A stretch of 57,285 nt of DNA from Dehalococcoidia bacterium (GTDB lineage Bacteria; Chloroflexota; Dehalococcoidia; Tepidiformales; Tepidiformaceae): contig JADZEI010000061.1 of the NCBI GenBank assembly GCA_020850615.1, positions 1 through 57,285 on the forward strand, given 5' to 3'. Below, piece after piece: positions 3,508 to 18,029 of this stretch (positions are counted from its first letter, which is position 1; every line of letters begins with the position of its first letter). Under the pieces are notes generated by a model. It was not told the origin of the DNA. It saw only the letters and a program-made list of their open reading frames with translations, and ran no database searches. The position numbers and the translations under genes are program-made.

Positions 3508-4446
3508 GTGCAAGCACCCACTGCTGTCGAAGCCGTCGATGTGGTGCGCTCCTACGGGGAGCGCCGCGCCCTCGACGGCTTCTCGCTTTCGGTGCCTGCC
3601 GGCGGCGTCTTCGGCCTCCTCGGCCCGAACGGCAGCGGCAAGAGCACGTTCATCACCCTCCTCGCCGCCATGGAAGCGCCACCCGAAGGCCGCCTCGCGG
3701 TGTTCGGCGAAGCGCCCGCCCCCCCGCTCCGCGCCCGCGTCGGCACCGTCTTCCAGGAAAACGCCCAGGACCCGCTCCTCAGCGTGCGCGAAACGCTCGG
3801 CCTCGCGGGGCGCCTCTTCGATGTGCCCCGCGCCACCCTCGCCGCGCGCCAGGCGGAGCTCCTCGTCGCGTTCGGCCTCGCCGGGCGCGAAAACGACGGC
3901 GTCGCCTCGCTCTCCGGCGGCATGCGGCGCCGCCTCGAGATGGTCCGCGCCCTCCTCCACGACCCCGAGCTCGTCCTCCTCGATGAACCGACCACCGGCG
4001 TCGACGTCGACGAGCGGCGCGCCCTCTGGGAGGCGCTGCTTGGCCCCGCGCGCGCCCGCCGCACCATCCTCCTCGCCACCAACGACCTCGCCGAGGCCGA
4101 CGCCGTCTGCGACCAGGTCGCCTTCGTCTCCGCCGGCCGCGTCGTCGCCACCGGCACGCCATCCGAGCTCAAGCGCGGCCTCCGCCGCGAAGCCGTGCGC
4201 GTGACCTGGCCCGGCGTCACGGACGAGCAGCTCGCCACCATCGCCACCTGGCCCGGTGCCGGTGACGTCACCCGCCAGGACGGCGTCCTCCACGTCACCG
4301 TCGACGACGCAGCCGCGTTCGTCCCCCGCCTGTTCGAATTCGCGCCCGGCGCGATCCGCGGCGTCCAGATCGAGCAATCCACCCTCGAAGACGCCTACGT
4401 CCGCTACGTCGGGCACCGCACGCGCACCCCGGAGCCCGTCGCATGA
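3508..4446 (+). CDS. ABC transporter ATP-binding protein (ABC-2 exporter type)
   Basis: 312 residues. The N-terminal two thirds form an ABC ATPase: Walker A GPNGSGKST, a Q-loop (VFQENAQDP), the signature LSGGMRRRLE, Walker B ELVLLDEPTTGVD and the switch His replaced in this region by an Asn (LLATNDLAEAD), which deviates from the usual TH-x(2)-EA sequence. The C-terminal about 80 residues resemble the accessory domain of DrrA/NodI-type ATPases. GTG 3508 gives the start; no good ribosome binding site is visible. The permease begins within the stop codon (ATGA), so the two form a coupled exporter; substrate unknown. Confidence 0.9.
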   Translation: MQAPTAVEAVDVVRSYGERRALDGFSLSVPAGGVFGLLGPNGSGKSTFITLLAAMEAPPEGRLAVFGEAPAPPLRARVGTVFQENAQDPLLSVRETLGLAGRLFDVPRATLAARQAELLVAFGLAGRENDGVASLSGGMRRRLEMVRALLHDPELVLLDEPTTGVDVDERRALWEALLGPARARRTILLATNDLAEADAVCDQVAFVSAGRVVATGTPSELKRGLRREAVRVTWPGVTDEQLATIATWPGAGDVTRQDGVLHVTVDDAAAFVPRLFEFAPGAIRGVQIEQSTLEDAYVRYVGHRTRTPEPVA

Positions 4447-5231
4447 GCGCCGCGGCCGCCTGCAGCGCCCTCTTCGCCCGCGACCTGCGCAGCGTCGTCC
4501 GCTCGCGCTCGCAGCTCTACTCGTCGATCTTCACGCCCCTCCTCATCCTCGTCTTCCTCGGCAACGGCGTCTCCGAAGGGCTCGACCCGGCGAACCTGAG
4601 CGATGGCAACTTCACCGCCTACCTCGTCGCCGGCGCCGTCGTCATGACCGCCGTGTTCTCCTCGACCTTCTCCAGCGCCGCCTACTACCGCGACCGCGAT
4701 ACCGGGCTCATGCGGATGCTCCTCTCCTCGCCCCACTCCGCGCGCATCATCCTCCTGGGCAAGTCGCTCGCCGGCGTCGCCATCGGCATGGTCCAGGCCT
4801 TCGTTGTGCTGTGCGTCGCCGCGCCGTTCGTCGACTTCGAATGGCAATACGGGCTCATCCCCGGCCTGCTCATCGCGCTCGCCGCCGTGGCCCTGCTGAA
4901 CGTCATGCTCGCCGGCATCGCCCAGACACTCGCCTCCCGCATCCAGACGATGCAGGGCTTCCACCTGCTGATGAACCTGGCCCTCTTCCCGCTCCTCTTC
5001 TTCTCCGGCGCATTCTTCCCCATCGACGGCCTGCCCACCTGGCTCGAAGTGCTCGCCTACGTCAACCCGCTCACCTACGCCGTCGACGCGCTTCAGCTCG
5101 CGGCCTACGCCAGCTCGGACGCGACCTACATCGGCCTCGCGGTCGACTTCGCCGTGCTGATCGCGCTCTCCGCGGCGGTCTACGCGCTCGGGCTCGCGCG
5201 CACCCCGAAGCTCACCTGGTCCGGCGCCTGA
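4443..5231 (+). CDS. ABC-2 type transporter permease
   Basis: 262 residues with about six hydrophobic segments: an N-terminal helix (FTPLLILVFLG), YLVAGAVVMTAVFSS, the re-entrant region around SPHSARIILLGKSLAG, AFVVLCVAAP, LIALAAVALLNVMLAG, then the conserved LLFFSGAFFPIDGLPTWL-type element and a final helix. This is the ABC2 membrane architecture of DrrB/NodJ-like exporters of drugs, lipids or polysaccharide precursors. It is coupled to the ATPase gene by a four-base overlap. The cargo cannot be deduced from the neighbours (YggT upstream, MarC downstream). Confidence 0.9.
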   Translation: MSAAAACSALFARDLRSVVRSRSQLYSSIFTPLLILVFLGNGVSEGLDPANLSDGNFTAYLVAGAVVMTAVFSSTFSSAAYYRDRDTGLMRMLLSSPHSARIILLGKSLAGVAIGMVQAFVVLCVAAPFVDFEWQYGLIPGLLIALAAVALLNVMLAGIAQTLASRIQTMQGFHLLMNLALFPLLFFSGAFFPIDGLPTWLEVLAYVNPLTYAVDALQLAAYASSDATYIGLAVDFAVLIALSAAVYALGLARTPKLTWSGA

Positions 5232-5906: not shown

Positions 5907-8669
5907 CTACACCACGTCCTTGCGCTTCTGGAGCACGTAGAGCGCCACGAATAGCACTGCCATGATCGAGAGCAGGCCGACCCAGCACACCCAGATCTCC
6001 GTCCCGAAGATGTCGCCGTAGCGGTCGTCGATCGGCGTGTAGGCCACGTTCCGCTGTTCGTCGGTGGTGTACTGTGCGAAGCCCGGCAGCCGGCACTCCG
6101 CGAGCGCGGGCGGTTCGCACACGCCCGTGCGCACCTGCGCCGCCGTCACCAGCCCGCGGAACACCCAGTTCGTGCTCGTAATCGCCCCCAGGACGCGACC
6201 CGCCACGCCCATCTCGCCCAGCGACAGCAACCCGCCCGAAAACACGATGTGCACGACCACGATGCCGATCACGAGCAGCATCGCCTGCTCCTCGCGCGGC
6301 GCCAGCGCCGAGATCAGCAGCCCCCACATCACGCCGGACATCACCGCCAGCGCGATCGTTACGTAGAGCTGCACGTAGTTCGTGACCGCCGCATCCGGGA
6401 ATTCGAGCCAGAGCGCCTTGATCACGAACAGCGCGAACGCGTGATACAGCGCGAACAGGAACCCTACCGACACCTTCGATAAGAGGTATGGCCCGATCCC
6501 CAGCGTCACCGTCCGCTCCCGGACGTAGATCGCGTGCTCCTTGACGATTTCGCGCACCGAGCTGAGCGCGCCCACGAGGAACGGGATGATCGCCGAGAGG
6601 AACAGCATCACCAGCGCCCGCGTCGAATCGCCGCCTGCAAACGCCAGCGCGTCCCGCGGCCAGACGAAGTCGACCAGCCCCAGCACCGGTGCCAGCAGGA
6701 ACAGCAGGAGCAGGTTCGTCCGGTCCCGCTTGATGATGTCGATGTAGCGCCGCGAAAGCACGGTGAGCTGCTTGAACGGGTTCGCCCGGCGCGGTGGCTT
6801 GTGCGTCCGCGCGGCGGCACCGCCCCCCTGCCCCGCCGCCCCGGGGATCGACGCCAGCCGCCCGACCGCGTATTCGGCATACTGCGGCGACTGCCGGTAC
6901 TTCGCCGCCCACGCCTCCGGCGTCGATTCGCCCTCCAGCTTCTCGTAGATGCCGTCGAAGTCCTCGACGCCGAAGTAGCTGAGCGCCTCCTCCGGCGGAC
7001 CGTAGTAAGCGAGGTGGCCGCCCCGCGCCAGGAACACCACCTGGTCGCACAGCATCACGTTCTTCGTCGCGTGCGTGATCAGGATGATCGTGTGGCCGTC
7101 GTCGGCCAGCTTCCGGAGCAGCCGCATCAGTTGCGATTCGGTCCCCGGGTCGAGGCCGGACGTCGCTTCGTCGAGGTAGAACAGCGACGGGCTGGTCAGC
7201 AGCTCCGCGCCAATCGACACCCGCTTCCGCTGCCCGCCGCTGAGCCGGACGATCGGCACCTCCGCGCGGGCGCTCAGGTCCAGCGTCTGGATCACCTCGC
7301 CGACGCGCTGCTGGTGCTCGTGCTCCGTCGTGTCCGATGGCAGCCGAAGCTCCGCCGCGTACTCCAGCGCTCGCTTGACCGGCAGCTCCTTGTGAAGGAT
7401 GTCGTCCTGCGGCACGTAGCCAATCGATGTCCGATACGAGTCGAAGTTGTGGTAGAGGTCGACGCCGTTGACCAGCACCGCCCCCTCGCTCGCCGGGCGG
7501 AAGCCGCTGAGCGCACCCAGCAGCGTCGACTTGCCCGCGCCGCTGACGCCCACCACCGCCACGAATTCGCGCGGGTGGATGGAAAACGACAGGTCCTGGA
7601 GCAGGTTCACCGTCGGCGAGACCCGCTGGTTCAGGCGCACCGCATCCAGCCGCACGCCCTGCGAGTCATCCGAAGTCGCGAGGCCGGTCTCCGAGAGCAG
7701 CAGCCGCATCGGGCCGATCCGGATCACGTCGCCCGGGCGCAGCTCGTGCGGCCGGCCCGGTTCGATCCGCGCGCCGTTCACGAACGTCCCGTTGCTCGAC
7801 CCCAGGTCCTCGATCACGCGGGTGTGGCCGCCATCCTGCCACGCGATCCGCGCATGCAGCCGCGACACGGTCGGGTGCGCGATCACGCAGTCGCACTCCG
7901 TCGCCCGCCCGACCGTGATCTCCTTGCCCGGGCGCAAGGGCAGCACCCGCTCCTCGACCGGCCCGTCCGGTCCGTACACGGTCTCGAACCGGAGCGACGC
8001 CGTCGGCCCGATGCGGACCATGTCCCCGTGCGAGAGGATGTGCTCGCTCACCCGGTTGGCGTCGACGAACAGGCCGAAACGGCTGTCGAGGTCCTCGACC
8101 ACCCAACCACGGGCCGTGCGCCGGATGCGCGCATGCCGCGCCGACACCGATTCGTGATCCACCACAACGTCACAGGACGGGTCCCGCCCGAGAATGAGCT
8201 CGTCCCGGTCCAGCACCACGTTGCGCGTGCCCTTCGGCGTCGTCACCGCGACCCGGGGCCGCTGGAGTGCGACCACCGTGGCGTTCGGCTCAGGCGGCCG
8301 CGCCGCCACGGGCTCCGCGGCCGCGACCATCGTCGCGCCCGCCTGTGTCATGCCCGGCGGCCCGAAGAACGACAGCCGCACGCCGCCCATCAGCACCACA
8401 TCGCCATCGCGCAGGAGCACCGGCACCCGGGGCGTGAGCTTCTGCCCGTTGAGCGTCGTCCCGTTCGCGCTGCCCAGGTCCGTGACGCTGTATCCGCCCT
8501 CGTCGGAGTCGAACCGCGCGTGGTGCCGGGAGACGTCGGCGCCCTCCACCACCAGGTCGTTGTCTCGGGAGCGGCCGACCGTGAGGGCAGCCTCGAACTC
8601 GACTTCCTGCTCACCACCGGCTTGCGCGACCAGCAGCCGGGCCCTGGTACCGGACCTCTCCGTCGTCAT
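5907..8669 (-). CDS. Triple-FHA-domain ABC transporter (ABCG-like half transporter)
   Basis: 920 residues in one chain. Three FHA domains come first: about 28-100 (GRSRDND, SRHH, SANGT), 157-228 (GRDPSCD, SARH, but the phosphopeptide-contacting Asn is lost in DSRFGL) and 249-325 (GRATECD, SRLH, SSNGT). An ABC ATPase follows with Walker A GVSGAGKS at 374-381, signature LSGGQRKRVSIG and Walker B FYLDEATSGLD, then an ABC-2 membrane domain with about six helices and an extracytoplasmic Cys-containing loop before the last helix. The layout is that of ABCG/White-type exporters and of mycobacterial Rv1747, which has two FHA domains and is controlled by a Ser/Thr kinase. ATG 8669 overlaps the lipase stop (ATGA). 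Substrate unknown; a lipid or envelope component is likely by analogy. Confidence 0.92.
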   Translation of the reverse strand: MTTERSGTRARLLVAQAGGEQEVEFEAALTVGRSRDNDLVVEGADVSRHHARFDSDEGGYSVTDLGSANGTTLNGQKLTPRVPVLLRDGDVVLMGGVRLSFFGPPGMTQAGATMVAAAEPVAARPPEPNATVVALQRPRVAVTTPKGTRNVVLDRDELILGRDPSCDVVVDHESVSARHARIRRTARGWVVEDLDSRFGLFVDANRVSEHILSHGDMVRIGPTASLRFETVYGPDGPVEERVLPLRPGKEITVGRATECDCVIAHPTVSRLHARIAWQDGGHTRVIEDLGSSNGTFVNGARIEPGRPHELRPGDVIRIGPMRLLLSETGLATSDDSQGVRLDAVRLNQRVSPTVNLLQDLSFSIHPREFVAVVGVSGAGKSTLLGALSGFRPASEGAVLVNGVDLYHNFDSYRTSIGYVPQDDILHKELPVKRALEYAAELRLPSDTTEHEHQQRVGEVIQTLDLSARAEVPIVRLSGGQRKRVSIGAELLTSPSLFYLDEATSGLDPGTESQLMRLLRKLADDGHTIILITHATKNVMLCDQVVFLARGGHLAYYGPPEEALSYFGVEDFDGIYEKLEGESTPEAWAAKYRQSPQYAEYAVGRLASIPGAAGQGGGAAARTHKPPRRANPFKQLTVLSRRYIDIIKRDRTNLLLLFLLAPVLGLVDFVWPRDALAFAGGDSTRALVMLFLSAIIPFLVGALSSVREIVKEHAIYVRERTVTLGIGPYLLSKVSVGFLFALYHAFALFVIKALWLEFPDAAVTNYVQLYVTIALAVMSGVMWGLLISALAPREEQAMLLVIGIVVVHIVFSGGLLSLGEMGVAGRVLGAITSTNWVFRGLVTAAQVRTGVCEPPALAECRLPGFAQYTTDEQRNVAYTPIDDRYGDIFGTEIWVCWVGLLSIMAVLFVALYVLQKRKDVV

Positions 8670-10360
8670 CGGGCCCCCGTGAGCTCGAGCTTGAGCCGCA
8701 TCTTCACGTCGTTGTCGGTATAGAGGGCGCCATGATACTGCCGCACCGGGTGGATTTCCGCGCCGGGCAGGATCGCGCTTGCTTCCGGCACCGCCGTGTC
8801 GCCCGACGCTTCCTCCACGAGCGAGACGCGCTGCCAGCGCCCGTCCGGCCCCCGCGTCACGTTCATCTTCGTCGCCGTCTTCAACCCGTACCCGAAGATG
8901 CAGATCGCCGGCACCGAGCAGCGCATCCCCAGCTCCTTTAGGAAGCCCGCGCTGTCCGAAGCCAGCTTGCGGCCCTGCGAGCCCGTCCAGCCGAAGTCCT
9001 CGTAGATGTTGATCTCCGCGCCCGTCTGGCTATCGAACACGGCCGGGTACGACGGCAGCAGGTGATACGCCGCCGGGTACGTCCGGAACGCGTCGCGCAC
9101 CTGGTCGCCCATGATGCCGAACGGGATCAGCCCGCGCCCCGAGAGCAGCGTCGCCAGCGACTTCGGGCTCCCGCGATGCGGCCCGCCGAGCATGATCAGC
9201 CGGTCGACCTTGCGATTGCCGCCCAGGAACTCCACGTAGTACCGGCTCACCAGCGACCCCATGCTGTGGGCCACGATCGTCACCGGCTCGTTCAGCCCGA
9301 GGCCGTCGATCTTCTCCGCCAGCAGCTTCGCCGTCGACCGCAGGTCCTGGCGCCAGTCGTACGGGAACTCGAACAGGTCCTTGCCCCGCGAATACCCCAG
9401 CGTCTCCTCCAGGAAGAGCCGCAGCCGCCCGTACTGGTCCAGGTTGAACAGGTTCGGGATGACCACGACCTGCTCGACGATCTTTCGCGCTTCCATCGGC
9501 AGCCGCTCCGGGAGGAGGTACTCCGCCGGCTGGCTCACCATGTTCTTCAGGTTCGGCCACATCATCACGTTGCCGCGCCACAGCTCCGACCCCAACAGCC
9601 CGGGGATGACCACGACTGGCTTCCGCCCCGTCTTCCGCGGCGCTTCGATCATCGTCAGGTCGTTGCTTTCGAACGGCGCCCGGAAGACGACCCGCGTGTC
9701 GCCGATCCGGAACGTGTCGCCGTCCTTCAGCGTGCGCTCCTCGACCCGTTCGAGCCCAACCCACGTGCCGTTGCTGCTGCCGAGGTCGCGGAGGATGAAG
9801 TTCCGCGCCGCGCGTTCCACCCGCGCATGGTGCCGCGAAGCCGCCGGGCTCGCGATGACGATGTCGTTCTCCGGGCTGCGACCCACATGGATCGCGTCCC
9901 CCCGGATCGGCACCTCCCGCGTGCCGTCCGGGCTGTTCACGATCAGCCGCGGCGTCTTCGTGTCCGAAAGCGCCATCGGCACGACCGTGTTCTCGATCGT
10001 CGTGCCCATGTCGTCCATCGGTGTGCCGATGATCGTCGCCGAAAGCGCCTCCTGGTCCGGGATGCCGCCCGATTCGAACCGCACCTCCGTGTCGCCGAGC
10101 AGCACCGATTCGCCCGGGCGCAGCGTCGCCTTGTCGACCTTCTGGCCGTCTTTTCGCACCCCGTTGGCAGAGCCGAGGTCCACCACCGTGAACGAGCTGT
10201 GCGACGCCTCGAACCGCGCGTGCACGCGCGAAATCTTCGGGTCGTCGACGATGATGTCGTTCGTCGCCGCCCGACCAATGGTCACCGAAGCAGCCGAGAG
10301 CTCGTACTCCTCGGCCTGGGCGCCGGTGCGCTTAATGTAGACCCTGGCGAAGGGCTCCAA
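8666..10360 (-). CDS. Double-FHA LCAT-like lipase/acyltransferase
   Basis: About 564 residues from TTG 10360. Two FHA domains at about 22-98 (TIGRAATND, SRVHARF, SANGV) and 155-228 (HVGRSPEND, SRHHARV, SSNGT) precede an alpha/beta hydrolase of the lecithin:cholesterol acyltransferase type: oxyanion region VVIPGLLGSELWRG, a cap with YDWRQDL, the nucleophile in AHSMGS (about Ser366), and candidate Asp and His in SGDTAVPE and QYHGALYTD. There is no signal peptide, so the protein is probably cytoplasmic or membrane-surface. The start is uncertain: GTG further upstream (near 10426) would add residues without domain features. The gene is coupled to the FHA-ABC exporter and diverges from the kinase gene, suggesting phosphothreonine-dependent recruitment. 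Confidence 0.85.
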   Translation of the reverse strand: MEPFARVYIKRTGAQAEEYELSAASVTIGRAATNDIIVDDPKISRVHARFEASHSSFTVVDLGSANGVRKDGQKVDKATLRPGESVLLGDTEVRFESGGIPDQEALSATIIGTPMDDMGTTIENTVVPMALSDTKTPRLIVNSPDGTREVPIRGDAIHVGRSPENDIVIASPAASRHHARVERAARNFILRDLGSSNGTWVGLERVEERTLKDGDTFRIGDTRVVFRAPFESNDLTMIEAPRKTGRKPVVVIPGLLGSELWRGNVMMWPNLKNMVSQPAEYLLPERLPMEARKIVEQVVVIPNLFNLDQYGRLRLFLEETLGYSRGKDLFEFPYDWRQDLRSTAKLLAEKIDGLGLNEPVTIVAHSMGSLVSRYYVEFLGGNRKVDRLIMLGGPHRGSPKSLATLLSGRGLIPFGIMGDQVRDAFRTYPAAYHLLPSYPAVFDSQTGAEINIYEDFGWTGSQGRKLASDSAGFLKELGMRCSVPAICIFGYGLKTATKMNVTRGPDGRWQRVSLVEEASGDTAVPEASAILPGAEIHPVRQYHGALYTDNDVKMRLKLELTGAR

Positions 10361-10513
10361 TCGGGGCTCCGGCGTGTGATGTCGCGGTAGCTTAGCGACT
10401 GGCGACAGCCCGTTCCAGCGGACAATCGCCACGACTGTGTGGGACGGGCTATACCCTCGCACTCCGCGCGCACGGTAGAGTACGCGATATCCCAGCCGGG
10501 ACACAGGAATCGC
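10361..10513. promoter_or_regulatory. Divergent promoter region between lipase and kinase genes
   Basis: A 153-bp gap between divergent starts. A TATACC hexamer at 10450-10455 on the plus strand (GGTATA on the minus strand) lies near its centre and could serve either direction; a CAGGA element precedes the kinase GTG. The exact promoters cannot be fixed by eye. Confidence 0.35.
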
Positions 10514-13327
10514 GTGACCAACCCAGGCCCCCCCACGGTTGTGAAGCACTACCAGCTCGTGCGCCAGATCGGCTCGGGCGGCATGAGCGACGTCTTCCTC
10601 GCGACCGACCGCCGCGACGGCTCCGAGGTCGTCGTCAAGCTCCTCCGCAATGTCGTCGGCGACGACGACAGCTACCGCGAGCGCTTCGAGCGCGAGGCCC
10701 ACGTCGGCGCGCTCCTCCGTTCGCCCTTCACCGTCCACCTGCTCGATTTCGGCCGCACCGCGGAAGGCCAGTACTTCCTCGTCACCGAATACGTCGACGG
10801 CGGCTCCCTCCAGGACGCCCTGCGCAACGGCCCCATGGAGCCGCGCCGCGCCGTCCGCATCGCCGCCCAGGTGGCACGCGCGCTCGAAGAAGCCCAGGCC
10901 CGCGGCGTCATCCACCGCGACATCAAGCCCGCGAACGTCATGCTCACCGCCAACGACGGCGTGAAGGTGCTCGACTTCGGCATCGCCCGCCAGGAGGGCG
11001 CGCTCACCATCACCATGCCCGGCAGCTTCGTGGGCACCGCCAACTACGCCGCGCCCGAAGCCTCGCTCGGCGAGACCGACATGCGGTCCGACATCTATTC
11101 GCTCGGCGCGACCCTCTACCACATGCTCGCCGGCCAGCCGCCGTTCTCCGGCGACCTGCTCCAGGTGCTCCGGCAGCACCGCGAGGCCACCGTCAACCTC
11201 AACGCGCTCCAGAACTGCCCCGAAGAGCTCATCGACATCATCCGCAAGTGCCTGGCGAAGAACCCGGAGGAGCGCTACCAGTCCGCCTCCCAGCTCGCCG
11301 GCGCGATCGAACACGCCTCCCGCGCCACGACGAACCCGCCGGTGCCGATCGTCGAATCCGGCCCGACGGTCATCGAATCCCCCGGCGCCGCCGCCAGCCA
11401 GCCCCTCCTCGCGCCCGACGACCTGCCATCCGAGTCCGTCACCAGCGCGCGGCCACTCCCGCCCGAGCCCGCTACCGCCTACACCATGGTCCGCCCGCCT
11501 GCGGCCCCCGTGACCCCCGCCGGCCCGGGCACGAGTGCGTCTGACTCGATGTCGCGGCCCCCCGTGCCCGTCGAGCTCTCGCTCCACGCCGTCCCCGGCA
11601 GCCGTAGCCGCTACGAGCTGCAGCTGCGCCACGGCAACCCGGCGCCGCTCCACCTCATGCTCTCCGCGTCCGGTGCCGGGCTCCGCTTCGAGCTCCCCGG
11701 CTCGGTCCTCGCCCAGGCCGGCACCACGAAGGTCCCCCTCGTCGTGCAGCCGGCGAAGCGCCGCATGGCCGGCGGCGCCCGCAGCCTGCCCTTCGCCGTC
11801 CACGCCAGCGGCAGCGGCGCCGAGCCCACCAGCGCCCACGCGTCGTACGCTGACCAGCCCTCGACCGCGCGGCTCATCGTGCCCGTGGCCGGTGGCGTCG
11901 CGCTCCTGGCCGCCGCCGCTATCTCCGTGCCACTCGTCCTCTCGGGCGGCGGCGACGACGCAGAAGGCGAGGAGAACACCCCCACGGCGACCACCACCTC
12001 AACGTCTACCGCCGTGGCAACCGCCACCACGACGGCCGTCCCGACCACCGCCGCCGGCGAGACCGAGCTCGCCTTCGTCGTGAACCAGGACCACTTCGCC
12101 CGCTCCGGACCCGATGGCACGAACGTCGCCGAGACCGACGTCCGCGGGTTCAACACCAACTGGTCCGCCGATGGCGCCGCCGTCGTCTACGAAGCCAACC
12201 TCACCGGCAACTTCGAGGTCTGGCTGACGACGAAGGACAGCCCCGAGGCCGTCAACGTCTCGAACCACGCCTCCAGCGACTCGCAGCCCGCCATCTCGCC
12301 CGATGGCCGGCGCGTCGCCTACACGGCCGCCCGCGATGGCAACGCCGAGCTTTACCTCCAGGAGCTGGGCGGCGGCGCCCCGGTCAACGTCACGAAGAAC
12401 CCCGCGACCGAGGCCCAGGCCGCCTGGTCTCCCGATGGCACGCGCATCGCCTTCGTTTCCGACCGCGACGGCAACTTCGAGGTCTACGTCATGAACGCGG
12501 ACGGCACGAACCTCCGCAACATCTCCAACAGCGCCGGCCGCGACTTCCAGCCCCAGTGGTCGCCCGATGGCGCCCGCATCGCGTACTACACCGACCGCGA
12601 CGGCAACTGGGAGGTCTACGCCGCAAACCCCGATGGCACCGGCGTCACGCGCCTCACCACCGACCCCGCGAAGGACGAACAACCCACCTTCGCGCCCGAT
12701 GGCCGCGTGCTCTTCGTCTCCGACCGCAGCGGCAAGCAGCAGATCCACTCGATGGCCGCCGACGGCAGCGACGCGAAGCAGCTGACGAACGTGCCGACCG
12801 GCGCAGCCTGGCCGCGCGTCATCCCGAAGGGCGCCGTCGTGCCGGGCAAGCCCGCCGCCGCATCCACCGCAACGGCCAGCCCGGCCGCTGCGACCGTCGG
12901 CGCCCAGGCCACCGCCCCACCCGCGACCACCAGCACCCGCGCACCCACGAGCGCCGCCACGCCCCCGCCCCCAACCGCCACCCCCACGGCCACGACAGCG
13001 CCGCAGCCATCAATGGCCGAGACGCAGTTCTGCATGGCCGCCGGGTGCTTCCCGCCGGGCAGCACCGTCAACGCCTGCAACCCCTCGGGCATGACTGGCT
13101 ACGCGACCTACACGAACATGCCCGCCGGCAGCACGATCGTCGTGCGCTGGGCCCGCGCGGGTGTCGTCCTCAACGAGACGAGCTTCTCGCCGGACGCGAC
13201 CAGCGGCGAGGCATTCGCCGACCTCTTCGGCAACGACGCCAGCCCGCTTGTCCCGGGCACCTACTTCCTGACCTGGATGCGCAACGGCCTCGCGCTCGCC
13301 ACCGGGACGATCACGCTCGCCTGCTAG
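10514..13327 (+). CDS. Membrane Ser/Thr protein kinase with extracytoplasmic TolB-like propeller
   Basis: 937 residues from GTG 10514. The N-terminal Hanks-type kinase domain has the Gly loop GSGGMSDVFLA (20-30), Lys42, HRDIKPAN with Asp136, DFG at 154-156 and a Thr-bearing activation loop (TITMPGSFVGTANYAAPE). A Pro-rich juxtamembrane linker and one transmembrane helix (about 455-478) follow. Outside the membrane come a Thr-rich spacer, about six WD40-like/PD40 repeats (patterns such as SPDGTRIAFVSDRDG) as in TolB, a second P/T-rich linker, and a C-terminal domain of about 105 residues with several Cys, ending in TITLAC. The sensor parts differ from the PASTA repeats of PknB. The divergent FHA-lipase and FHA-exporter are likely targets; this is an inference from position. 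Confidence 0.92.
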   Translation: MTNPGPPTVVKHYQLVRQIGSGGMSDVFLATDRRDGSEVVVKLLRNVVGDDDSYRERFEREAHVGALLRSPFTVHLLDFGRTAEGQYFLVTEYVDGGSLQDALRNGPMEPRRAVRIAAQVARALEEAQARGVIHRDIKPANVMLTANDGVKVLDFGIARQEGALTITMPGSFVGTANYAAPEASLGETDMRSDIYSLGATLYHMLAGQPPFSGDLLQVLRQHREATVNLNALQNCPEELIDIIRKCLAKNPEERYQSASQLAGAIEHASRATTNPPVPIVESGPTVIESPGAAASQPLLAPDDLPSESVTSARPLPPEPATAYTMVRPPAAPVTPAGPGTSASDSMSRPPVPVELSLHAVPGSRSRYELQLRHGNPAPLHLMLSASGAGLRFELPGSVLAQAGTTKVPLVVQPAKRRMAGGARSLPFAVHASGSGAEPTSAHASYADQPSTARLIVPVAGGVALLAAAAISVPLVLSGGGDDAEGEENTPTATTTSTSTAVATATTTAVPTTAAGETELAFVVNQDHFARSGPDGTNVAETDVRGFNTNWSADGAAVVYEANLTGNFEVWLTTKDSPEAVNVSNHASSDSQPAISPDGRRVAYTAARDGNAELYLQELGGGAPVNVTKNPATEAQAAWSPDGTRIAFVSDRDGNFEVYVMNADGTNLRNISNSAGRDFQPQWSPDGARIAYYTDRDGNWEVYAANPDGTGVTRLTTDPAKDEQPTFAPDGRVLFVSDRSGKQQIHSMAADGSDAKQLTNVPTGAAWPRVIPKGAVVPGKPAAASTATASPAAATVGAQATAPPATTSTRAPTSAATPPPPTATPTATTAPQPSMAETQFCMAAGCFPPGSTVNACNPSGMTGYATYTNMPAGSTIVVRWARAGVVLNETSFSPDATSGEAFADLFGNDASPLVPGTYFLTWMRNGLALATGTITLAC

Positions 13328-16493: not shown

Positions 16494-18029
16494 TCAGTCC
16501 TCGCTCGCCACGTTCGGCGCCACCACGCGGTGCTGCGGCGTGCCCGCGCTGCTCGAAGCGACGATGTCGATCTCGAACACCCCGCCCCCGCCCAGGAGCG
16601 GCTCGAGCCAGACCTTGCCGACGTTGCCGGTGCCACCCGGGGTAAGCAGCGGGTCGAGCGTGATCTCCAGCTCCGAGACGTAGCCCTCCTGCGCCACCCG
16701 CGGCCGTGTGCTGTTCGGCGCCTGTGTCACCACGTCTGTCTCGAACCCGATCGCGATGCTCCCGTCGAGCGTCCGGCCCGTCTGCCCAGGGTGCCGCACC
16801 ACGATCCACGGCGCCGATGTCCGGATCCGAAACGGCCCGATGAACGTGCCCGTGTTCGCCACGCTGACCGTCCCCTTCGTCGCGGTCCCGTCCGCGAACA
16901 CGGTGAGCGCCATCGAGCTCGGCCCGTTGTACTCCAGGAACGGATCGCCCAGGAAGCCCGCGGCCAGCGCCGCGTCCACCGGCAGCGTCGTGTCCTTGTG
17001 CGGTTCGACGTTCTTCCCGTCCTCCAGCGTCAGCGTCGTCGGGAAGTCCATGTCCGGGCAGCCGTTCGCAAACCCGGCGTCTTCGCATTTGATGTAGTGC
17101 TCCGGCTTGAACGCGTTCGCGATCTGCTCCAGCTTCAGGTCCGGCATGTTGAACGTCTGGGCGTTCCACATCCGCGCCCCGTTGCGCAGCGGCGGGTAGC
17201 GCATGCACCCATACACCTTCTCCGGGTACGTGTAGCTGCCGTAGAAGAACGTGTCGTACCCCGGCGCCTGCGGGTCCGAGCAGTGGTACACCTCGCCCCG
17301 CAGCGGGTCCCGCAGCGGGTTCAGCCCGTACTCCTCCCAGTCCAGCTCGTGCTCCGTGTCGGAGGCGGGATGGTTCAGCGCCGCGAAGCCATTGTAGCTC
17401 CAGATCGCGTAGTACCAGTCCTCCAGCATCGCCGGGTCGCCGTCCCCCGCGATCGGCCGGAACTTCGGCGCGCTGTTCCACTTGTCCGCCAGGATGCGCG
17501 CGCCCTCCGCCAGGTTGAACAGGAAGTGCGTGCCGATCACCGCCTGCTTCGCGCTCGCGTTCCCCGTGCTGTTGCCCATGCCCGAGGTGATCTGTCCCAG
17601 CCCGTACCCGCAGTCGAACGACCGGATGACCGGCCCAACGCCGCCGTAGGGCACCGCGCTGCTCGCATTCGCCCAGCTCGCCTCGATCCAGATGATCGAC
17701 TTCATGATGCTCGGCGGGATCGCGAGGTTTGTGTTCAGCTGCGTCGTCCGCGCGGCCCGCGGGCCCTTGAGCAGCCCCTGGTAGCGCACGTCCACCGGCT
17801 CGCCGCCCACGTTGTACGCGAACGTGACGCCCTTCCCCGCCGCGCTCAGCTCGATCGCCTGCGTGTACGCGGCCAGGTAGTCCTCGGCCTCGTAGGTGTC
17901 GAAGTCGAACGGCCCCGCCGCGCCGCAGGCTTCGACCTCCGGCGTGCCACCCGAAAGGTGCCAGCCCCACGAGAGCAAAGCAGCAAGGACGGCCACCACG
18001 GCCGAGATGCGCGCTATCGGGTGGCCCAT
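16494..18029 (-). CDS. Secreted lytic-transglycosylase-like protein
   Basis: 511 residues. A signal peptide or N-terminal anchor (ISAVVAVLAALLSWGWHLS) is followed, at about residues 95-240, by a goose-type-lysozyme/SLT-like region: SIMKSIIWIEASW with the candidate catalytic Glu and CGYGLGQITSGM, the usual GxGLxQ element. A long second half is rich in beta strands (IRTSAPWIVVRHPG, GSIAIGF) and resembles an Ig-like or cellulosome-type beta domain. It likely cleaves or binds peptidoglycan outside the membrane. The start overlaps the 3' end of the upstream propeller gene by 16 bases, so the two are one transcription unit. The enzymatic assignment is by motif only. Confidence 0.72.
   Translation of the reverse strand: MGHPIARISAVVAVLAALLSWGWHLSGGTPEVEACGAAGPFDFDTYEAEDYLAAYTQAIELSAAGKGVTFAYNVGGEPVDVRYQGLLKGPRAARTTQLNTNLAIPPSIMKSIIWIEASWANASSAVPYGGVGPVIRSFDCGYGLGQITSGMGNSTGNASAKQAVIGTHFLFNLAEGARILADKWNSAPKFRPIAGDGDPAMLEDWYYAIWSYNGFAALNHPASDTEHELDWEEYGLNPLRDPLRGEVYHCSDPQAPGYDTFFYGSYTYPEKVYGCMRYPPLRNGARMWNAQTFNMPDLKLEQIANAFKPEHYIKCEDAGFANGCPDMDFPTTLTLEDGKNVEPHKDTTLPVDAALAAGFLGDPFLEYNGPSSMALTVFADGTATKGTVSVANTGTFIGPFRIRTSAPWIVVRHPGQTGRTLDGSIAIGFETDVVTQAPNSTRPRVAQEGYVSELEITLDPLLTPGGTGNVGKVWLEPLLGGGGVFEIDIVASSSAGTPQHRVVAPNVASED

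Follow-up and report, generated by a model that had tools for sequence, protein, structure and literature searches.

A Ser/Thr kinase paired with an FHA-FHA-LCAT lipase in Chloroflexota: a candidate route from protein phosphorylation to lipid chemistry

By which enzyme could a bacterial membrane kinase act on lipids? This question is raised by a locus of a Dehalococcoidia bacterium (Chloroflexota) on contig JADZEI010000061.1, of which a stretch of 57,285 nucleotides, hereafter the window, was analyzed. An initial annotation, made from the letters alone, had described three adjacent genes, with an acyl hydrolase and an exporter divergent from a kinase, and had read them as a kinase-controlled system for lipid remodelling and export. 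Open reading frames and Pfam searches confirmed the three genes at their coordinates and in this arrangement: a triple-FHA ABCG-type half-transporter gene (5907..8669, minus strand; 920 aa, NBD followed by TMD), an FHA-FHA-LCAT hydrolase gene (8666..10360, minus strand; 564 aa) and a Hanks-type Ser/Thr kinase gene (10514..13327, plus strand; 937 aa). The lipase gene, which most likely starts at the TTG at 10360, sits between the other two in a single cluster. Since its stop codon overlaps the transporter start as ATGA, these two genes very likely constitute one translationally coupled operon. They are separated from the divergent kinase gene, whose best start is GTG 10514 (GTG 10439 is possible), by an intergenic region of 153 bp (10361..10513), in which no sigma-70-like consensus promoter was found. 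The source genome (4.17 Mb) contains 11 FHA matches and only 6 kinase-domain matches, the latter number counting in favor of a meaningful adjacency, and a single PP2C phosphatase gene, located near another kinase than that at 10514..13327. Elsewhere in the window, a DrrA/DrrB-like ABC exporter pair and a MarC-family gene (3508-5231, plus strand) lie convergent to the FHA-ABC gene, placing a second exporter close by, and a 511-aa protein free of Pfam matches (16494-18029, minus strand) contains a GYGLGQITSG motif that, by eye only, recalls lytic transglycosylases.

At the protein level, the E-values exclude chance for the domain assignments, and NCBIfam agrees in kind with Pfam for all three proteins. 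The hydrolase, annotated as LCAT-like with two FHA domains, indeed combines two Pfam FHA matches (4.7e-36) with an LCAT match (6.6e-17), and scores 62.3 bits against the profile of the LCAT/PLA2G15 family (PF02450), which has a gathering score of 21. FHA1 covers approximately residues 25-92, FHA2 156-222 and the LCAT domain 248-561. No transmembrane helix was detected by hydropathy, and the protein is presumably cytosolic. Its predicted catalytic triad, S366, D521 and H543, is nearly invariant in an alignment of 39 homologs and falls within an α/β-hydrolase fold in the structural model; likewise, both FHA pockets (G-R, S-R-x-H and N-G) are kept in 36-39 of these 39 homologs at each residue. 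An AlphaFold2 model from 44 sequences (pLDDT 89, pTM 0.90) places lysosomal phospholipase A2 (PLA2G15) and LCAT as the nearest solved folds of the catalytic domain (Foldseek, 2.6e-15), in line with a sequence match to PLA2G15 at 8e-9. Proteins of the LCAT fold can be phospholipases, acyltransferases or lipases, and a role of this enzyme in lipid remodelling is suggested by its kinship in fold to group XV phospholipase A2/LCAT. For the FHA domains, the nearest solved structures are those of OdhI, EmbR, GarA and Rv1747, and the matches include DgcB in complex with its tail peptide. The FHA and LCAT domains are joined by linkers in which conserved threonines stand out from an otherwise variable sequence. 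Linker 1 (SATIIG...TTIENTVV; 9953..10072, minus strand) is rich in threonines that are candidate phosphosites, with pLDDT values below 50 for residues 102-113, and linker 2 (9620..9676, minus strand) carries the candidate phosphosite LTMIEAP, which conforms to T-x-I-E and was singled out by motif counts across homologs.

The second predicted partner, an ABCG-like exporter with three FHA domains, was borne out by Pfam matches to three FHA domains (7.5e-66), ABC_tran (6e-27) and ABC2_membrane (1.9e-12), together with six hydropathic segments. Its middle FHA domain has DSRFG where S-x-NG would be expected and lacks the pocket asparagine; the phosphothreonine-binding residues are kept in the remaining four of the five FHA domains of the locus, two in the lipase and two in the transporter.

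The kinase, too, has the architecture first proposed for it, a kinase domain (Pkinase, 3e-49; residues 13-257) linked via one predicted transmembrane helix (454-472) to an extracytoplasmic TolB-like propeller (PD40 repeats, 1.2e-36; about 550-740) and a Cys-containing C-terminal domain. In an alignment of 30 linked kinases, the residues K42, E61, H134-D136, K138, N141, D154-G156 and P181 are invariant and E182 is nearly so. The outer modules, by contrast, vary: of 30 partner kinases, 4 have PD40 propellers and 8 have TPR repeats, while some of the others have WD40 repeats or modules that were not recognized. We therefore rejected the propeller as a sensor common to these kinases. The Cys-containing domain, also annotated as part of the sensor, is present as described, yet 37 further genomes of the order yielded no relative of it, which makes its sensor role a guess. 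On a Dehalococcoidia chromosome (L026:14563-16587), a partner protein with the tail domain, a transmembrane helix and a propeller, in front of which no kinase domain was found, is encoded beside an intact lipase-transporter pair.

To ask how general the arrangement is, we followed the lipase through other genomes. Its LCAT part was matched in 2 of 38 genomes of the same order, with an FHA-LCAT match in G019, which belongs to the same family; among 393 genomes of the class, 18 had a match, five of them, including the source genome, with all domains, and in a phylum sample four genomes, again including the source genome, had full-length matches. With an alignment of five FHA-FHA-LCAT proteins as query, a scan of the collection yielded 38 loci (L025-L062), mostly from Chloroflexota (Dehalococcoidia, Anaerolineae, Caldilineaceae and Aquidulcis) and a few from records titled Acidobacteria, Pseudomonadales, Nitrospirales and Actinobacteria. 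A second class-level search added 15 distinct loci, for a total of 54 with the window. No full-length FHA-FHA-LCAT protein was found in plasmid records, and phage records gave matches at the FHA level and no FHA-FHA-LCAT protein.

Across these 54 loci, a kinase gene adjoins the FHA-FHA-LCAT gene in 40, mostly in Chloroflexota and also in Pseudomonadales, where linkage means that the two genes are directly adjacent or parted only by an FHA-ABC gene. This applies to 30 of 39 loci in the first set, which includes the window (28 identified by BLAST, to which Pfam and homology added two from Pseudomonadales), and to 10 of 15 in a hold-out set. By comparison, none of 13 FHA-less LCAT genes from Chloroflexota records has a kinase in the flanks examined (Fisher p=8e-7). 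The kinase may lie upstream, downstream, divergent or convergent, and a quick LCAT tree, with absence counted as a state, implies no fewer than 15 switches between arrangements, so that the linkage does not simply reflect one frozen gene order. An FHA-ABC gene, in turn, belongs to the cluster in just 10 of 54 loci (the window, L026, L029, L031, L035, L048, L050, L051, L054 and L055), and of 29 further FHA-ABCG genes in the phylum, 2 have a kinase within 1.5 kb; in two more genomes of the class (L023 and L024), an FHA-ABC gene and a convergent kinase gene are accompanied by a mere fragment of the lipase. From these counts, the conserved core is the kinase together with the FHA-LCAT lipase, and the transporter is optional; the three-gene arrangement of the window was consequently rejected as a conserved unit. 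Of the co-occurrence predicted in the initial annotation, which had named its absence from related genomes as grounds for refutation, the kinase-lipase part thus stands, whereas neither the exporter nor the propeller generalizes.

The wider neighborhoods of the family are diverse. In a 9.8-Mb genome (G910), three FHA-FHA-LCAT paralogs without a kinase (L207, L209 and L212) form a clade of their own and directly adjoin PKS/NRPS modules or thioesterase genes, in one case with an MFS transporter, which may mean that natural-product clusters have recruited the enzyme. In G019 (L061/L019), the lipase is encoded near an animal-haem-peroxidase gene (658 aa) followed by a 390-aa open reading frame that looks catalase-like by eye only, a conceivable oxylipin-like set. 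An Acidobacteria MAG has an FHA-LCAT gene overlapping an OEP-HlyD-AcrB tripartite (RND) efflux operon (L056:4884-13208). In Pseudomonadales (L057:4196-9593 and L058:9713-15173), one gene run encodes FHA-LCAT together with a divergent, Cys-pair-containing kinase-like protein, a PP2C phosphatase and a PrsW protease; an earlier guess from gene sizes, which assigned these copies to a type VI secretion cluster, proved wrong. These neighborhoods are compatible with chemistry on lipids, the envelope or a product and do not decide between them.

The stretch between kinase domain and membrane helix, here called the kinase tail, shows the threonine pattern first noticed in the lipase linkers. In the window, this tail contains the candidate docking site SGPTVIESP (T-V-I-E; 11357..11383, plus strand). 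A narrower first motif, T[VIML][VI][DE], occurs 15 times in linked kinases and not once in control kinases. The wider motif T-x-[ILV]-[DE], chosen post hoc after reading the tails of the linked set and then checked on the hold-out set, was found 36 times in 22 of 31 linked tails, where shuffles give 3.75±1.9; the 27 unlinked control kinases of the phylum contain it 4 times, where shuffles give 3.7±1.9. These controls were not drawn at random but are the top-scoring kinases of other genomes. With serine in place of threonine, the motif is at chance in both sets, and its reversed form is not comparably enriched (10 vs 3.6 in linked kinases, 7 vs 3.9 in controls). The hold-out kinases have 7 motifs in 5 of 10 tails (0.92±1.0 expected; the highest of 300 shuffles is 6), although their difference from the controls is weaker (5/10 vs 4/27, p=0.04), and in a redundancy-reduced set, with one representative per 60%-identity cluster, 9 motifs compare with 1.1±1.0. 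A related pattern, T.[ILVA][DEN], recurs in the lipase linkers of the 39 homologs, 30 times in linker 2 (3.0±1.8 in shuffles) and 27 times in linker 1 (11.9±3.3). The enrichment in the tails fits pTxx[E/D], one of two FHA ligand classes (PMC8786283), and for bacterial kinases, a phosphorylated juxtamembrane region has been put forward as a docking site of FHA proteins (PMC12077195). An unlinked kinase of the source genome (L246; G000:C45:5500-10500), in which a cytoplasmic domain of similar appearance precedes the membrane helix, carries ATVVESP in its tail; motif specificity may therefore be shared between kinases, and two kinases of this genome may address the same FHA proteins.

The explanation that we favor, and hold to be probable with appreciable room for doubt, is that the membrane Ser/Thr kinase controls the LCAT/phospholipase-A2-like enzyme in the cytosol through phosphothreonine. 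The outer-surface module, in the window the TolB-like propeller, would change the activity of the kinase, which would phosphorylate T-x-(I/V/L)-(D/E) threonines both of its juxtamembrane tail and of the lipase linkers. The lipase FHA domains would bind these phosphothreonines, so that the enzyme is docked at the membrane and/or rearranged in cis in the style of OdhI/GarA and DgcB, and the LCAT domain would then deacylate or transacylate inner-leaflet lipids. Some genomes, this one among them, also encode an FHA-carrying ABCG transporter, which could answer to the same code and export a lipid product. The domains, the conserved pockets and triad, the kinase linkage and the motif enrichment are all read from sequence; from them, we infer phosphorylation, phosphothreonine binding, the sign of regulation, the substrate and export. 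Counting against this explanation, 9 of 31 linked kinases lack the motif, and the two Pseudomonadales partner kinases are without TxxE and have degenerate HRD/DFG motifs; the G910 paralogs in PKS/NRPS clusters, moreover, have no kinase beside them. The original idea of kinase-controlled lipid remodelling and export gains from the kinase-lipase link and the matching motif and loses the exporter, found in 10 of 54 loci, as a general part.

Could the same observations arise without docking on the kinase? In a pure cis switch, the kinase would phosphorylate the lipase linkers, the lipase's own FHA domains would capture them, the tail would be no docking site and the membrane would be reached otherwise. 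The conserved motif in linker 2 (30 vs 3.0±1.8) is compatible with such a scheme, as is the closeness of the FHA domains to OdhI and GarA and, among the matches, to DgcB with its tail peptide, given that the DgcB FHA domain binds its own tail (PMC6733907); we nevertheless consider it unlikely, if still a serious candidate, as it leaves unexplained why the motif is enriched in linked kinase tails and not in controls. A more distant reading is that the LCAT enzyme is a biosynthetic acyltransferase that makes or releases an exported acylated product, the kinase link being general envelope or secondary-metabolism control. Here, the PKS/NRPS, thioesterase and MFS transporter genes beside the G910 paralogs, the efflux operon overlapping the Acidobacteria copy and the FHA-ABCG gene in 10 of 54 clusters are suggestive, yet among the neighborhoods annotated, a subset of all, biosynthetic genes turned up in a single genome, and the close neighbor in most loci is a kinase gene. 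We regard this reading as improbable.

Finally, the adjacency itself could be inherited gene order or hitchhiking devoid of functional meaning, with FHA domains serving constitutive oligomerization. Many of the 54 loci are related by descent and hence not independent, and 14 have no detected adjacent kinase (some of these 14 end at contig edges). That the kinase is retained through repeated changes of gene order and strand, that the FHA-less LCAT genes of the phylum are without one (0/13) and that the phosphothreonine-binding residues of the FHA domains are conserved make this very unlikely. Returning to phosphothreonine control of the lipase, its most far-reaching form would be a pathway from receptor kinase to phospholipase, in which an outside signal activates the kinase, the phosphorylated tail draws a cytosolic phospholipase A to the membrane, and the lipid set free, as a signal or product, is exported by an FHA-gated ABCG transporter. 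We put this forward as a speculative and rather doubtful extension that, if true, would be an analog of eukaryotic receptor-coupled PLA2 signalling.

Together, these findings suggest that lipid chemistry may be switched on or off by protein phosphorylation in these bacteria. Across a family of at least 54 loci, mostly of Chloroflexota, a Ser/Thr kinase seems to act directly through an enzyme of lipase fold, which provides this phylum with a candidate path by which phosphorylation could alter membrane lipids, and the family offers short peptide motifs precise enough for testing. The analysis also splits the conserved core, kinase and FHA-LCAT, from the optional exporter. To our knowledge, few bacterial FHA effectors are enzymes. 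As the initial annotation had supposed, the FHA-LCAT lipase seems to be undescribed: a literature search, mostly outside subscription papers, found no published description of such a protein or of its kinase linkage.

The closest known system is the kinase/FHA-exporter pair already pointed out for mycobacteria, PknF-Rv1747 of Mycobacterium tuberculosis, where a kinase gene lies beside that of an FHA-carrying ABCG-type half-exporter under FHA/phosphothreonine control, and where PIM levels are reduced in the Rv1747 mutant (PMC3908365, PMC5549992); the FHA region of Rv1747 forms phosphorylation-dependent condensates (PMC9312465). In the window, the genes of the kinase and the FHA-carrying ABCG-type half-transporter belong to one cluster, with the lipase gene between them. 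Rv1747 has two FHA domains and the transporter described here three, and no LCAT lipase has been described with PknF-Rv1747. Moreover, the conserved kinase partner in Chloroflexota is the lipase and not, as in that pair, the transporter, given the 2 of 29 other FHA-ABCG copies with a kinase nearby. With group XV phospholipase A2/LCAT (PF02450), the lipase shares its fold and Ser-Asp-His triad. The animal enzymes of this group are secreted or lysosomal; unlike PLA2G15 and LCAT, the bacterial lipase has two N-terminal FHA domains and, lacking transmembrane helices by hydropathy, is presumably cytosolic. The structural neighbors of these FHA domains, OdhI and GarA, follow the logic of an FHA phospho-switch, and so does DgcB, whose FHA domain binds its own tail (PMC6733907). 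The outputs of these switches are 2-oxoglutarate metabolism or c-di-GMP synthesis; in the system described here, the candidate output is a lipase-like enzyme, which would represent a new effector class within the otherwise known framework of kinase-FHA signalling.
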